A DNA stretch of 47,763 bases from Bacteroidota bacterium (GTDB lineage: Bacteria > Bacteroidota > Bacteroidia > Chitinophagales > Chitinophagaceae). Position numbers and translations under genes: made by a program. Where the stretch lies: positions 1 through 47,763 of the forward strand of contig JAUZOD010000029.1 in the NCBI GenBank assembly GCA_030706635.1, in the 5' to 3' direction. This document shows positions 1,906 through 45,711 of the stretch, piece by piece. How positions within the stretch are numbered: the stretch's first letter is position 1; every line of letters begins with the position of its first letter. The notes beneath the pieces are model-generated. The model did no database searches and was not told where the DNA came from. It was given only the letters and a program-made list of their open reading frames with translations.

Positions 1906-1991
1906 GATGTGGAAATGTGATAATGTGTAAATGAAATACAAGGGTCCTGTCTCTAATTTCCACATTTCCACATTTTCACATTTCCACATTA
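1906..1991. repeat. Family A inverted repeat, copy 1 (8-bp AATGTGnn units)
   Basis: Left arm: GATGTGGA AATGTGAT, then AATGTGTA and a partial AATG (1906-1933). Right arm: four inverted units, CCACATTT twice, TCACATTT and CCACATTA (1960-1991), with a 26-bp unrelated middle. It fills the gap between the ExbB-type and ExbD-type genes. The ExbB stop codon TAA (1991-1989) is the first three bases of the element read on the minus strand (TAATGTGG). The transcript could fold into a long imperfect stem. Related copies lie at 3886-4007 and 12968-13084. Confidence 0.85.
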
Positions 1992-2923: not shown

Positions 2924-3895
2924 ATGGATCAAATTTTAGATATCGTGGTCATCGGTGGAGGACCCATCGGACTGGCCTGCGGACTGGAAGCAAAAAAGGC
3001 GGGATTGAGTTATCTGATTCTCGAAAAAGGCGTGCTGGTGAATTCGCTTTACCACTACCCTGCAAATATGACTTTCTTCTCTACTTCAGAAAGAATTGAA
3101 ATTGGCGAGGTTCCCTTTGTAAGCAACAATGCAAAGCCAACGCGGGCAGAAGCGCTGGAATATTACCGGCGGATCGCGGTGTCAAACCACCTGAACATCC
3201 ATCTCCAGGAACCGGTTGAACAATTGATCCCGGCTGGCGATCAGTACGAGGTGCTGACGCCCAAAGGCCGTTACAAGGCCAGGCACGTGATCATTGCCAC
3301 CGGTTTTTATGATATCCCAAACCTGATGCATATTCCCGGGGAGGAGCTCCCCAAGCTTACCCATTATTACAAAGAGCCGCATTTTTATGCCATGCAGAAA
3401 GTGGTGGTGGTTGGTGCAAACAACTCTGCTGTTGACGCCGCGCTGGAAACCTGGCGTAAGGGAGCAGAAGTCACCATGGTCATACAAGGCGATGGCATCG
3501 GGAAGCGGGTGAAATACTGGGTGAAACCCGATATTGAAAACCGGATCGCGGAAGGGACCATCAAAGCCTATACGCATTCCAGGCTCGCGGCCGTTCGCGA
3601 AAAAGAAGTGGATATCCAAACGCCTGAAGGAATCATCACGATCCCCAACGATTATGTACTGGCGATGACGGGTTACCAGCCCAATTTTGAGTTTTTAGAA
3701 AACATGGGGATCGAGCTTTCAGCGGATGCAAAACGTTGTCCCGTCTACAACAGCGAAACCATGGAGAGCAATAAAAAAAATATCTATCTCGCCGGCGTTG
3801 TATGCGGCGGCATGGACACGCATATCTGGTTCATCGAGAACTCCAGGGAGCATGCGCGGAAGATTGTTGCGCACATTGTGCGCGCAATGTGCTAA
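2924..3895 (+). CDS. ypdA: YpdA family putative bacillithiol disulfide reductase
   Basis: FAD/NAD(P)-dependent oxidoreductase, 323 aa, related to thioredoxin reductase but without its CxxC pair, as expected for YpdA, which recycles oxidised bacillithiol. Seen: FAD motif GGGPIGLACGLEA from residue 11, a second nucleotide-binding motif GANNSAVDAAL at 164-174, and the ATGFYDIP segment typical of the family. The ATG at 2924 is chosen over an in-frame TTG at 2915 because the latter lies inside the -7 element. The last codons (RAMC and stop) come from family A repeat copy 2, so the native C-terminus has probably been replaced by repeat sequence. It converges with pepT across that repeat. Bacillithiol biosynthesis genes are not in this window. 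Confidence 0.88.
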   Translation: MDQILDIVVIGGGPIGLACGLEAKKAGLSYLILEKGVLVNSLYHYPANMTFFSTSERIEIGEVPFVSNNAKPTRAEALEYYRRIAVSNHLNIHLQEPVEQLIPAGDQYEVLTPKGRYKARHVIIATGFYDIPNLMHIPGEELPKLTHYYKEPHFYAMQKVVVVGANNSAVDAALETWRKGAEVTMVIQGDGIGKRVKYWVKPDIENRIAEGTIKAYTHSRLAAVREKEVDIQTPEGIITIPNDYVLAMTGYQPNFEFLENMGIELSADAKRCPVYNSETMESNKKNIYLAGVVCGGMDTHIWFIENSREHARKIVAHIVRAMC

Positions 3896-4007
3896 TGTGC
3901 TAATGTGCTAATGTGCTGATGTGCTAATGTGCTGATGTGAAAATGTGTAGACGTGCTGATGACTTCGACACATTTACACATTACCACATCAGCACATTTA
4001 CACATTA
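3886..4007. repeat. Family A inverted repeat, copy 2, between convergent ypdA and pepT
   Basis: Left arm: nine 8-bp units, AATGTGCT (3886-3917, four copies) followed by GATGTGCT, AATGTGCT, GATGTGAA, AATGTGTA and GACGTGCT. Right arm: five inverted units (3968-4007) of the ACACATTT or GCACATTT type. It covers the whole gap between two convergent genes and contains both stop codons: ypdA TAA at 3893-3895 and pepT TAA at 4007-4005. A nearby inverted pair GCACATTG/CAATGTGC (3871-3892) extends the structure into ypdA. It could act as a bidirectional transcript end. Confidence 0.88.
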
Positions 4008-5383: not shown

Positions 5384-6277
5384 ATGACCACCACCGGAAC
5401 GCTCAGGCCACGTATTCATGCCGGCTGGCTGCGTGTGCTTATTTTTTGCGTTGCTTACCTGCTGCTGATCCTGGCGGGCGTTTTTGTGATGAGTCTGATC
5501 ATTCACCGGGTAAAAGGAGAAGCTGCCGATGCCGATCAGTTAATGAAGGGAGAACTGCTCTGGGCGGTGATCCTGGCGATTTTTGCGGGATCGCTGGCCA
5601 TAGTGTATATCTTCCGGCGCTGGGTTGACCGGAAACCTTTTTTATCCCTCGGACTAAAATACCGGAAACACGGGGCCGATGCAGTTGCCGGAGTTTCTCT
5701 GGCAGTTTCCATGCTGGGGCTTGCCACGCTGATTCTGCGGGCAACCGGTCACCTGAAATGGACCGATATTATTTTTGACGGCCGAACGCTTTTTATTGCC
5801 CTGATCAACCTGCTTTTCGTGGCCGTTTACGAGGAAGTCGTTTTCAGGGGGTATATCCTGGGCAACCTGATGGAATCTTTCAACCCATGGGCTTCACTGG
5901 CGATATCCGCCGGATTGTTTACCGTGTTCCACCTGGCGAATCCCGGATTTGATTTTTTCTCTGTCGTAAATCTTTTTGCTTTTGGCCTTCTGCTGGGCAT
6001 GAACTATATCTATACCCGCAATCTCTGGTTTGCCATCAGTTTTCATTTCGCGTGGAATTTTCTGGAGGGCCCCGTCATGGGCTACCCCGTCAGCGGCATT
6101 CACTTCGGCACCCTGTTGCAAACAGAAATGAAAGGGGATGACAACATAACCGGAGGTACTTTTGGCCTGGAGGGATCGTTCATCGTCATGGCGATTTGTA
6201 TCCTTGCCATTCTGGCGCTGTATTTTATCCTGCAAAGAAAATTCAGTCAGGGACCCCGGTTGGTCCGGAATTTATAG
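5384..6277 (+). CDS. CPBP family intramembrane glutamic endopeptidase
   Basis: Membrane-embedded protease of the CAAX/CPBP (Abi) family, 297 aa with about eight hydrophobic helices. Signature motifs: EEVVFRG (E150, E151, R155), FxxxH in FTVFHLAN (H183) and HFAWNF (HxxxN). The start is the ATG at 5384; an in-frame TTG 21 bp upstream is less likely. Members in bacteria are mostly of unknown substrate; some process peptides or confer bacteriocin immunity. Its TAG stop is the start of a half copy of the family B repeat (TAGTTGACC). It stands alone, convergent with the FKBP gene. Confidence 0.9.
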   Translation: MTTTGTLRPRIHAGWLRVLIFCVAYLLLILAGVFVMSLIIHRVKGEAADADQLMKGELLWAVILAIFAGSLAIVYIFRRWVDRKPFLSLGLKYRKHGADAVAGVSLAVSMLGLATLILRATGHLKWTDIIFDGRTLFIALINLLFVAVYEEVVFRGYILGNLMESFNPWASLAISAGLFTVFHLANPGFDFFSVVNLFAFGLLLGMNYIYTRNLWFAISFHFAWNFLEGPVMGYPVSGIHFGTLLQTEMKGDDNITGGTFGLEGSFIVMAICILAILALYFILQRKFSQGPRLVRNL

Positions 6278-6304
6278 TTGACCGTTGACGGTTGATAGTT
6301 GACC
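6277..6304 (+). repeat. Family B half element (GTTGACn units, left arm only)
   Basis: Four 7-bp units in a row: GTTGACC, GTTGACG, GTTGATA, GTTGACC. The G at 6277 is the last base of the CPBP protease stop codon TAG. No inverted right arm or central loop follows, unlike the full copies at 6788 and 45626. It lies between convergent genes. Confidence 0.8.
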
Positions 6305-6787: not shown

Positions 6788-6873
6788 GTTGACGGTTGAC
6801 CGTTGACTGTTGACGGAGTTTAGTTGCGAATTCGCATCGGATATCGGTCAACCGTCAACCGTCAACCGTCAAC
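6788..6873. repeat. Family B inverted repeat, copy 1 (GTTGACn units with conserved loop)
   Basis: Left arm: GTTGACG, GTTGACC, GTTGACT, GTTGACG from 6788. Right arm: inverted units of the GGTCAAC/CGTCAAC type, ending at 6873. The loop (about 6815-6846) contains a perfect 12-bp palindrome TGCGAATTCGCA (6825-6836). The loop is nearly the same in the copy at 45626-45711. It lies between the divergent FKBP and fmt genes and ends where the fmt -7 element begins. Confidence 0.88.
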
Positions 6874-12230: not shown

Positions 12231-12974
12231 ATGAAAATTTTAGTCTGTATCAGTAAAACGCCGGATACCACGGCAAAAATAGCCTTCACAGATAACAACA
12301 GGAAATTTGCTGCTGACGGGGTTCAATGGATAATCAACCCCTACGATGAATGGTATGCGCTGGTGCGTGCCATTGAATTGAAGGAGAAAGATCCCTCCGC
12401 CGTTATTCATCTGATTACGGTAGGTACGGCGGATGCCGATCCCATCATCCGCAAAGCTCTGGCTTTAGGCGGGGACGAAGCCCTGCGGGTGAATGCCGAT
12501 GGTCAGGACAGCTTTTTTATTGCTTCCCAGATTGCAGCGGTTGCGAAGGACGGAGGATACGATCTGATTTTTACGGGAAAAGAAACCATAGACTACAACG
12601 GATCTTCCGTTGGCGGCATGATAGCCGCCCTGCTTGATCTTCCCTATATTTCTCTGGCGGCAAAGTTTGACCTGGCCGGAAACAGCGCGACCATCGTCCG
12701 CGAAGTGGAGGGTGGTGAAGAAACGGAAGAAGTATCCCTGCCCCTGGTGGTCAGTTGTCAGAAAGGCATGGCCGAACAACGGATCCCGAATATGAAAGGC
12801 ATCATGGGCGCGCGTACGAAACCGTTGAAGGTGCTGGATCCACAGCCGGTGGAAGCACTTACGGAGATTGTTTCCTTCGAATTGCCCCCGACAAAAAAAG
12901 GCGTCAAAATGATCCCCGCGGAAAATGCAGAAGAGTTGATCAGGCTGTTACATGAAGAAGCGAAGTTAATGTGA
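12231..12974 (+). CDS. etfB: Electron transfer flavoprotein, beta subunit
   Basis: AMP-binding subunit of the ETF heterodimer, which carries electrons from acyl-CoA and other dehydrogenases to the quinone pool. 247 aa. Family blocks: MKILVCISKTPDT, the EWYALVRAIELKE helix, LIFTGKETIDYNGSSVGGMIAALLDLPYIS, and the signature VVSCQKGMAEQRIPNMKGIMGARTKP. etfA follows after 144 bp containing family A repeat copy 3. The stop codon TGA and the last Met codon come from that repeat (AATGTGAT). The downstream spacing is unusually long for etfBA. Confidence 0.96.
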   Translation: MKILVCISKTPDTTAKIAFTDNNRKFAADGVQWIINPYDEWYALVRAIELKEKDPSAVIHLITVGTADADPIIRKALALGGDEALRVNADGQDSFFIASQIAAVAKDGGYDLIFTGKETIDYNGSSVGGMIAALLDLPYISLAAKFDLAGNSATIVREVEGGEETEEVSLPLVVSCQKGMAEQRIPNMKGIMGARTKPLKVLDPQPVEALTEIVSFELPPTKKGVKMIPAENAEELIRLLHEEAKLM

Positions 12975-13084
12975 TAATGTGCTAATGTGGAAATGTGTAA
13001 ATGAGGGCATGATGAGATTCATGAGAATTTTAAAATGAAATGTATTTAATCTCCACATCAGCACATTAGCACATTTCCACATCT
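12968..13084. repeat. Family A inverted repeat, copy 3, between etfB and etfA
   Basis: Left arm: AATGTGAT, AATGTGCT, AATGTGGA, AATGTGTA (12968-12999) and a decayed AATGAGGG. Right arm: CCACATCA, GCACATTA, GCACATTT, CCACATCT (13053-13084). The middle of about 45 bp shows no similarity to the other copies. It separates two genes of one operon and supplies the etfB stop codon. Its stem could shape relative expression of the two subunits. Confidence 0.87.
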
Positions 13085-20021: not shown

Positions 20022-20092
20022 GGTTTCGTGGCCGAGTGGCTAGGCAGAGCTCTGCAAAAGCTTCTACAGCAGTTCGAATCTGCTCGAAACCT
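20022..20092 (+). tRNA. tRNA-Cys (GCA anticodon)
   Basis: A full cloverleaf of 71 nt. Acceptor GGTTTCG (20022-20028) pairs with CGAAACC (20085-20091), discriminator U. D-stem GCC/GGC encloses GAGTGGCTA. Anticodon stem GAGCT/AGCTT encloses loop CTGCAAA with anticodon GCA at 20054-20056. T-arm AGCAG-TTCGAAT-CTGCT. The CCA end is not encoded. Confidence 0.96.
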
Positions 20093-44610: not shown

Positions 44611-45597
44611 ATGGTAAAAGGAACCTCTTCGCCGGCTTCACTCGAAGCCCTGGCGATCGGAATAGACATCGGCGGAACCGGAACCAAATTTGGCATTGTG
44701 GACCGCGTTGGAAACGTGTTGTTTACCGGCGAGATTTCTACAAAAAAGCACAAACAGGTCGGAACATTCATTGATGAATTGCATGAGAATCTTTCCTCCC
44801 TGATTCAGAATGTTGGGGGCTCCGGCCGCATCCGGGGAATCGGTGTGGGTGCGCCCAACGGGAATTATTATACCGGAACAGTGGAATATGCGCCTAATCT
44901 TCCATGGAAAGGCATTATTCCGCTGGCCCAGCTCATTCAGGATAAATTTCAATTGCCCAGTATACTTACCAACGACGCCAATGCGGCGGCCATTGGAGAA
45001 ATGATGTATGGAGCTGCGCAGGGAATGAAGGATTTCATCATGATCACATTAGGTACCGGTGTTGGCAGTGGCATCGTGGCCAACGGGCACCTCGTGCTGG
45101 GGCATGACGGGTTTGCCGGGGAACTCGGTCATACCATAATCATCCCTGATGGCAGGTTTCACGAAGGAACCGGCAAGTACGGCTCACTGGAAAGTTATGC
45201 ATCGGCTACCGGCGTAACCCTAACGGCCAAGGAGATGCTGGCAAAAACTGATACGGAGAGCCTGCTCCGCCAGATTTCGGTTAAAGATATAGACTCTAAA
45301 AAAGTGTATGATGCTGCTGTTCAGGGTGATGCCGTTGCGCGGGAAATCTTCGAATATACCGGCAAGATCCTGGGTATGGCGCTGGCTAATTTTGTTATGT
45401 TCTCCAGTCCGGAAGCCATTATTTTATTCGGCGGCCTCACCAAATCGGGCGATTTCATCCTTAAACCAACCCGGGAGTACATGGAAGCAAATCTGATCCA
45501 GGTATTCCAGAACCGGGTGAAAATCCTGGTCAGTCATCTGCGGGAATCAGATGCTGCCATTTTGGGTGCAAGTGCGCTGGTATGGGAAATGCCTTAG
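44611..45597 (+). CDS. ROK family sugar kinase (glucokinase-like), zinc motif lost
   Basis: 328 aa. ATP phosphate-1 motif DIGGTGTKFG (19-28), catalytic Asp in LTNDANAAAIGE, TLGTGVGSGIVANG, and GELGH with the metal-site His. The following segment, which in most ROK proteins is the CxCGxxGCxE zinc site, reads DGRFHEGTGKYGSLESYASA without any Cys. No helix-turn-helix domain, so it is a kinase rather than a repressor. With the MFS upstream it would phosphorylate imported glucose or a similar hexose, feeding the glycogen genes next door. Confidence 0.9.
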   Translation: MVKGTSSPASLEALAIGIDIGGTGTKFGIVDRVGNVLFTGEISTKKHKQVGTFIDELHENLSSLIQNVGGSGRIRGIGVGAPNGNYYTGTVEYAPNLPWKGIIPLAQLIQDKFQLPSILTNDANAAAIGEMMYGAAQGMKDFIMITLGTGVGSGIVANGHLVLGHDGFAGELGHTIIIPDGRFHEGTGKYGSLESYASATGVTLTAKEMLAKTDTESLLRQISVKDIDSKKVYDAAVQGDAVAREIFEYTGKILGMALANFVMFSSPEAIILFGGLTKSGDFILKPTREYMEANLIQVFQNRVKILVSHLRESDAAILGASALVWEMP

Positions 45598-45625: not shown

Positions 45626-45711
45626 GTTGACTGTTGACCGTTGACGGACTTTAGTTGCGAATCCGCACCTGATGCCGGTCAACGGTCAATAGTCAACAAT
45701 CAACAATCAAC
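45626..45711. repeat. Family B inverted repeat, copy 2 (GTTGACn units with conserved loop)
   Basis: Left arm: GTTGACT, GTTGACC, GTTGACG (45626-45646). Right arm: GGTCAAC, GGTCAAT, AGTCAAC, then AATCAAC twice (45677-45711). The loop keeps the TTTAGTTGCGAAT core of copy 1, with TGCGAATCCGCA in place of the perfect palindrome. It lies between the convergent ROK kinase and lipA genes and contains the lipA stop codon (45702-45700). Confidence 0.88.

Follow-up and report, generated by a model that had tools for sequence, protein, structure and literature searches.

Palindromes of tandem short units lie mostly just behind stop codons in a Chitinophagaceae genome

The window, i.e., the whole stretch of 47,763 nt analyzed here, carries copies of two families of non-coding dispersed palindromes in which tandem units are followed by a center and then by the same units inverted. 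The unit is RATGTGNN (8 nt) in family A and GTTGACN (7 nt) in family B. Their locations are as follows.

1906..1990, no strand assigned: family A element with 3 + 4 octamer cores that takes up most of the spacer between exbB and exbD
3886..4006, no strand assigned: family A element, 9 + 5 cores, between the convergent genes ypdA and pepT
6277..6303, forward strand: family B single array of four heptamers, in which no inverted arm was found
6788..6873, no strand assigned: family B element of 4 + 4 units, lying between the divergent genes slyD and fmt
12968..13083, no strand assigned: family A element between etfB and etfA, the first unit of which holds the etfB stop
45626..45711, no strand assigned: family B element, the right arm of which holds the lipA stop

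We took the outermost unit core as the edge of an element and measured the offset from the end of the stop codon to that edge, negative values indicating overlap. The exbB stop (TAA, 1991-1989) adjoins the first element at offset -2, and the element at 3886..4006 overlaps the stops of both its neighbors, ypdA (TAA, 3893-3895; offset -10) and pepT (TAA, 4007-4005; offset -2). The stop of the CPBP protease gene (TAG, 6275-6277) adjoins the single B array at offset -1, that of etfB (TGA, 12972-12974) falls in the first unit of its A element (offset -7), and that of lipA (TGA, 45702-45700; offset -12), together with the last residues V-D-C, is within the right arm of the last B element. A preliminary description had placed these six stops in or at the edge of an element, and all six positions were confirmed. 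Its wording that this holds at every gene end touched by a repeat has the outcome partly built in, as eight stop-codon sides face elements in the window and two of them make no contact, slyD (21 bp from the B array) and the gene at 44611-45597 (28 bp from the left edge of the last B element). The B element at 6788..6873, in its divergent spacer, has no stop codon beside it. The five two-armed copies are predicted to fold, as RNA, far better than their shuffles (z scores of -5.6 to -8.7), with energies, in the order given above, of -34.3 kcal/mol (z -6.8), -52.6 (z -6.5), -53.0 (z -8.7), -40.7 (z -5.6) and -41.9 (z -6.7). No element matched Rfam 15 at the gathering score; the sole match in the whole window was a tRNA gene at 20022-20092.

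Both families are abundant in the genome from which the window comes (G000, 4.58 Mb). The three-unit pattern of A was found 22 + 32 times (reversed control, 0 + 0) and the tandem pattern of B 87 + 48 times (reversed control, 17 + 2), while for the palindrome patterns of both families the reversed-reading controls gave 0. A sample of ca. 464 kb, made up of the window and 54 other stretches of G000 picked for holding elements (about a tenth of the genome), contained 98 elements, 49 of A, 46 of B and 3 of a third family, C; the sample counts 2.8 kb twice, contigs after C130 are under-sampled and degraded arrays are missed. There were 38 two-armed copies of A and 35 of B, with median lengths of 93 and 86 bp, respectively, and the commonest layout had four units in each arm (18 A, 15 B). 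Similar centers recur at different loci, most clearly in B (by eye). In the two-armed A and B copies of the G000 stretches, the outer-first arm is the G-bearing one and the other arm is C-bearing. Several known sources of such repeats could be discarded. Canonical REPs moved by a RAYT are ruled out by the scarcity of the GTAG/CGTC tag, found within 5 nt at only 2 of 146 edges of two-armed elements, and by the 0 matches to the Y1 transposase (RAYT, PF01797) in G000 (99.93% complete, 162 contigs), in a search that gave matches in 5 of 14 control genomes. U-tract terminators are ruled out as well, since TTTT occurs within 12 nt of the end in 13/146 cases against a background of 7.6%, i.e., with no enrichment. 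A phage source was rejected from the 0 exact matches in viral contigs to one A center-plus-arm pattern, a search that covered family A.

We then considered where the elements lie with respect to genes; gene starts came from gene calling with a hexamer model, while stop positions are independent of the start. Among 110 stop sides facing A or B elements, 17 had offsets of -5 or lower, 26 of -2 to 0, 30 of 1 to 8 nt and 37 were farther away, so that 43 overlap or adjoin the element and 73 are within 8 nt of it. The 58 A sides split into 8 at -5 or lower, 18 at -2, 2 at -1 or 0, 16 at 1 to 8 and 14 farther, and the 52 B sides, in the same classes, into 9, 0, 6, 14 and 23. Start sides (39 for each family) are farther off, with medians of 32 nt (A) and 42 nt (B), and a called start is overlapped by only one A and one B element (offsets -2 and -57). 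Elements were found in 27 convergent, 54 tandem and 12 divergent pairs, compared with 39, 194 and 57 element-free pairs. The convergent excess (27/93 versus 39/290; p = 0.0009) agrees with a preference for gene 3' ends, and the deficit of divergent pairs does not reach significance (p = 0.16). In 46 of the 54 tandem pairs the element is closer to the stop, and in the other 8 to the start (p = 1.4e-7). This preference falls to 34 to 19 (p = 0.053) when 25 bp are deducted for 5' signals and to 27 to 27 when 40 bp are, and therefore an active attraction to stops is unsupported. Uniform placement within the same spacers gave a similar picture. An offset of 0 or less would be expected for 20.9 of 108 sides, against 43 seen (reached in 0/5,000 simulations), but the expectation rises to 34.1 if 25 bp are kept clear of starts (p = 0.0002) and to 42.9 with 40 bp (p = 0.58). 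Within 7 nt, 73 sides were seen against 45.0, 58.4 and 62.0 expected for reserves of 0, 25 and 40 bp, an excess that survives even the largest reserve (0/5,000 simulations). The even spread of edges across intergenic space that the preliminary description set against its own reading is thus not what these 98 elements, from about a tenth of the genome, display. Element edges are uneven, but the closeness largely follows from short spacers and the sparing of 5' signals.

Whether the stop is native or comes from the repeat can be judged by the ends of orthologous proteins. In the window, the etfB stop is at the same position in 29/29 orthologues fetched, 20 of them from the genus and 9 from the order (the search matched 34 of 39 genomes, our own included). 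In the close relatives G006 and G019, an A array lies four nucleotides past the native etfB TGA, and the last codon, ATG in the window versus ATT in both of them, makes the gene end resemble the unit. For exbB and pepT, up to 22 rows per gene were compared. All 21 exbB orthologues shown end in LQEPT[RK]* (30 rows were found, the window included), and pepT ends no more than about five residues away from the orthologue stops shown. The tails of ypdA and lipA are unlike those of the orthologues shown, that of ypdA being repeat-encoded, and in the CPBP protease the orthologue tails are too variable to judge the origin of the stop. The earlier statement that the repeat supplies the stop at every gene end it touches is therefore too strong; it is borne out for ypdA and lipA and fails for exbB and etfB, and the pepT stop is near the orthologue position. 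The spacers point in the same direction. In the relatives with no array detected, the exbB-exbD spacer is 3 to 84 bp long (median 22; 19 relatives), against 96 bp here with an element of 85 bp, and the etfB-etfA spacer is 1 to 76 bp (median 41; 25 relatives), against 144 bp with an element of 116 bp. Since the array-free spacers are shorter by about the length of the element, the comparison suggests that at these two sites the element was added to a native spacer and not exchanged for it.

The comparison of C-termini was extended to 87 gene ends in G006, in three sets of 29. Orthologues end at the same residue in 11/14 cases of the offset -2 class (A sides), in 21/25 of the 0 to 8 class (A and B sides; L348, at 55% identity, is a possible paralogue) and in 14/21 of the element-free controls (L369 is perhaps another). 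Pooling the two abutting classes gives 32/39, indistinguishable from the control (Fisher p = 0.21), while in the repeat-encoded class (offset -5 or lower) only 1 of 10 ends alike (Fisher p = 0.006 versus control). Drop-outs through no hit, a weak hit or a contig end were 1/15 for the -2 class, 4/14 for the repeat-encoded class, 4/29 for the 0 to 8 class and 8/29 for the control. Hence a stop that is generally supplied by the repeat is ruled out by etfB, exbB and these orthologue ends. Judging from gene ends aligned between genomes, insertion just behind native stops dominates, and overrun into the gene accounts for about 15% of the stop sides.

In the overruns, the repeat itself offers stop codons, which derive from the TGA of GTTGAC in B and from TAA or TGA at unit junctions in A. 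Of the arms of two-armed B elements, 62/70 stop all three frames within 30 nt, as do only 5.6% of 1,024 control windows. The corresponding figure for A is 11/76 arms, rising to 54/76 within the whole element (41% in control windows of 86 nt), and the all-frame stops of A hang on the variable NN letters of its unit. The nine B overruns have offsets of -5 (two), -12 (four) and -19 (three), one value for each frame, the spread that random-frame entry predicts. Family A has instead a sharp mode at offset -2, with 18 of the 53 arm ends at stops (TAA 13, TGA 5, TAG 0), where the stop codon falls on the TRA belonging to the element itself. This mode is the more telling as A rarely stops all frames within 30 nt. 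The absence of TAG contrasts with 9/27 at offsets of -1 or more (p = 0.007), but measured against 256 control genes the depletion reaches only p = 0.05. A T precedes the outer core at 24 of 34 A start-side ends too. Given that the orthologues mark most -2 stops as native, either insertion makes use of TRA or junctions of this kind are those that do the least harm.

Relatives allow the same gene ends to be followed. Among 33 genomes of the genus, 6 have the A pattern, with many copies in G000, G019 and G006 and few in G014, G042 and G043. In G006, an array lies behind the stop at 28 of 49 gene ends that have an element in G000, versus 5 of 21 control ends (p = 0.018), with a threshold under which some visible short arrays go uncounted in either group. 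As several gene ends share a spacer, we recounted once per own element or control locus, obtaining 23/40 versus 4/19 (p = 0.012). Inspection by eye revealed an unrelated unit in G006 at 7 of these 28 ends, which correspond to 5 own elements. An A element corresponds to AAAAGTA, GTTGATG or CAATGGA at 3 ends of 3 elements (the CAATGGA case is mixed, and the two ends of that element are on different G006 contigs), and B corresponds to AAAAGTA at 4 ends of 2 elements. The units of G006 are GTTGAT, AAAAGTA and AATTTG/AATGTG mixtures, and those of our genome GTTGAC and AATGTG. Doublets of AAAAGTA number 0 in 464 kb of G000 versus 14 in 276 kb of partly overlapping G006 loci, those of GTTGACGGTTGAC 82 versus 2, and those of GTTGATGGTTGAT 7 versus 18. 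Further units, TGTGGTAG in G017 and GTATAAGA in G005, are known from just one or two sites each. Hairpins of different octamers stand behind the same exbB stop in G005 and G017. At this exbB site, the window, G006 and G019 have centers that align but arm units that are different.

As a side observation, the loci of four genomes of the same genus, G006, G019, G017 and G005 (L285-L288), all have arrays of differing units directly behind that exbB stop, and G015 (L289) only a weak one (by eye). Other comparisons involved 26-R-25 and Pinibacter aurantiacus, whose sequences agree at about 90% over 7.7 kb and which share a terminator-like stem at one convergent site (by eye); around this shared center (L153:14968-15131 and L157:14987-15137) the arms are made of 7-mers in one genome and of 8-mers in the other. 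Tandem-unit hairpins were found in 5/80 loci, most of them in these two genomes, and in 4/8 further stretches, with a detector that recovers 3 of the 5 two-armed window elements, and thus blanks in relatives mean little. In ten relatives' loci, two of which are about 90% identical so that not all offsets are independent, 17 of 18 stop-side hairpin offsets fall between -18 and +8, and on the start sides none of the 23 goes under 7. The idea that the G006 array is usually the same inherited copy was unsupported by the centers; matched G000 and G006 centers rank first at 3/27 A and 0/11 B gene ends (3/38 in all), the clear cases being L110:14952 and L082:5856, besides the exbB site.

Repeats behind stop codons are ordinary in principle, but these are unusual in build. 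Like REP/BIME sequences, A and B are dispersed extragenic palindromes, some of them just behind stops. REP ends have been reported to provide the stop codons of neighboring ORFs (PMC3733652), and one account finds 446 of 4,072 Escherichia coli REPs no farther than 15 nt from a stop and, citing earlier work, states that ribosomes can be stalled by REPs lying shortly after a stop (PMC12306157). REP/BIME units are nevertheless short (20 to 40 bp), whereas A and B typically measure 86 to 93 bp with arms of tandem 7- or 8-mers, lack the tag (2/146 edges), have no Y1 transposase found in G000 and differ in unit sequence between species of one genus. The other parallel is the TAACTGA heptamer repeat of Beggiatoaceae, cyanobacteria and some Bacteroidetes (PMC4679880), likewise made of tandem short units and mostly intergenic. 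According to that source, its arrays stop all three forward frames, hence being confined to ORF ends in that orientation, and in the genome studied there they are mostly just upstream of starts, direct, with one inverted case (PMC4679880). The units here, RATGTGNN and GTTGACN, are different and mostly have inverted arms, and stops in all three frames within 30 nt are common in B arms and scarce in A arms. Finally, A and B resemble intrinsic (Rho-independent) terminators in their stable stem behind a stop, often between convergent genes, but they lack U-tract enrichment and also occur inside the exbB-exbD and etfB-etfA pairs. A strong terminator at either place would separate partner genes. Cyanobacterial STRRs are also tandem heptamers located between genes, and to our knowledge they have not been described as paired inverted arms. 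In the open-licence literature of PubMed Central, we found neither a hairpin with arms of tandem 7- or 8-mers nor a change of unit at fixed gene ends, and no report of these units or of such hairpins in Chitinophagaceae.

Putting these data together, A and B elements sit, for the most part, just behind stops that are usually ancestral, with a minority overrunning the gene end; their survival is probably confined to neutral bases, and their stem in the mRNA may serve as a 3' barrier. Insertion, or survival after it, would be limited to the few neutral bases between a stop and the 5' signals of the next gene. When an element overruns (ca. 15% of the stop sides), the first in-frame stop in the repeat closes the protein and its C-terminal residues are changed, and the all-frame stops, strong in B, may render small overruns harmless. 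The stem right behind the stop could protect the mRNA from 3' exonucleases or slow termination; by its predicted folding and by analogy with REP elements, such a role would be closer to theirs than to that of a U-tract terminator. Of the two readings offered in the preliminary description, tolerance only at stops is thus the main one. Against it are the few elements that overlap called starts and the -2 mode of A, which plain tolerance does not predict. The other reading, by which the element generally replaces the native gene end, so that the stop and the last residues derive from the repeat, is very improbable as a rule. It is true by offset for 17/110 stop sides, and nearly all of the G006 orthologues of such ends, like the ypdA and lipA tails in the window, fit it, but exbB and etfB have native stops and the -2 and 0 to 8 classes mostly end where their orthologues do; it stands for a minority and is refuted as a general rule.

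The -2 mode would find a ready explanation if A inserted specifically at TAA or TGA, its terminus (T)RATGTG pairing with or duplicating the TRA of the stop and regenerating it. The lack of TAG among the 18 cases and the T before most start-side cores speak for this, yet B has no such mode, many A elements lie 2 to 16 nt beyond the stop, neither transposase nor target duplication was identified and the TAG depletion weakens against control genes, which together make it unlikely. At the other extreme, the elements could be placed wherever they do no harm, compact spacers forcing the contact with stops without any function. The null with a 40-bp start reserve, which fits the data at offsets of 0 or less, and the shortness of the 39 element-free convergent spacers (median only 24 bp) agree with such an artefact, but the excess within 7 nt outlasts that null and arrays recur behind the same stops in G006 (also after deduplication), and we regard it as possible but rather doubtful. 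A similarly tentative place has to be given to growth or rewriting of the arms in place, by slippage, arm-to-arm conversion or exchange between copies, around an older center and without movement of the whole element. The shared stem of 26-R-25 and P. aurantiacus and the aligned centers at exbB argue for it. Against it, similar centers recur at different loci, as in dispersal, and matched centers seldom rank first between G000 and G006. On a par with it, and also somewhat doubtful, is that in this Chitinophagaceae genus and its neighbors the hairpin is kept behind a fixed stop while its unit is swapped, the arms being overwritten on both sides by a non-Y1 machinery, with the stop and sometimes the center staying.

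The preferred reading, location just behind mostly ancestral stops, separates a repeat that supplies a stop from one that is tolerated behind it, two situations that a reading of one sequence confuses. It also describes palindromes built of periodic arms, on which no REP tags were found and for which no Y1 transposase turned up. Species pairs with hairpins of different units at the same gene end make it possible to ask directly whether it is the stem or its sequence that matters, and anyone calling genes or comparing proteins in this family should be prepared for C-terminal tails encoded by a repeat. As a minor observation, the third unit family consists of CCATTGT heptamers, located at L068:3367-3541 and L087:3520-3644. 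In L087, contig C81 ends just past the array, likely an assembly break, and in L068 the CCATTGT units are interleaved with B units, this C array being the only one with the reverse arm order, i.e., with the C-bearing arm first.
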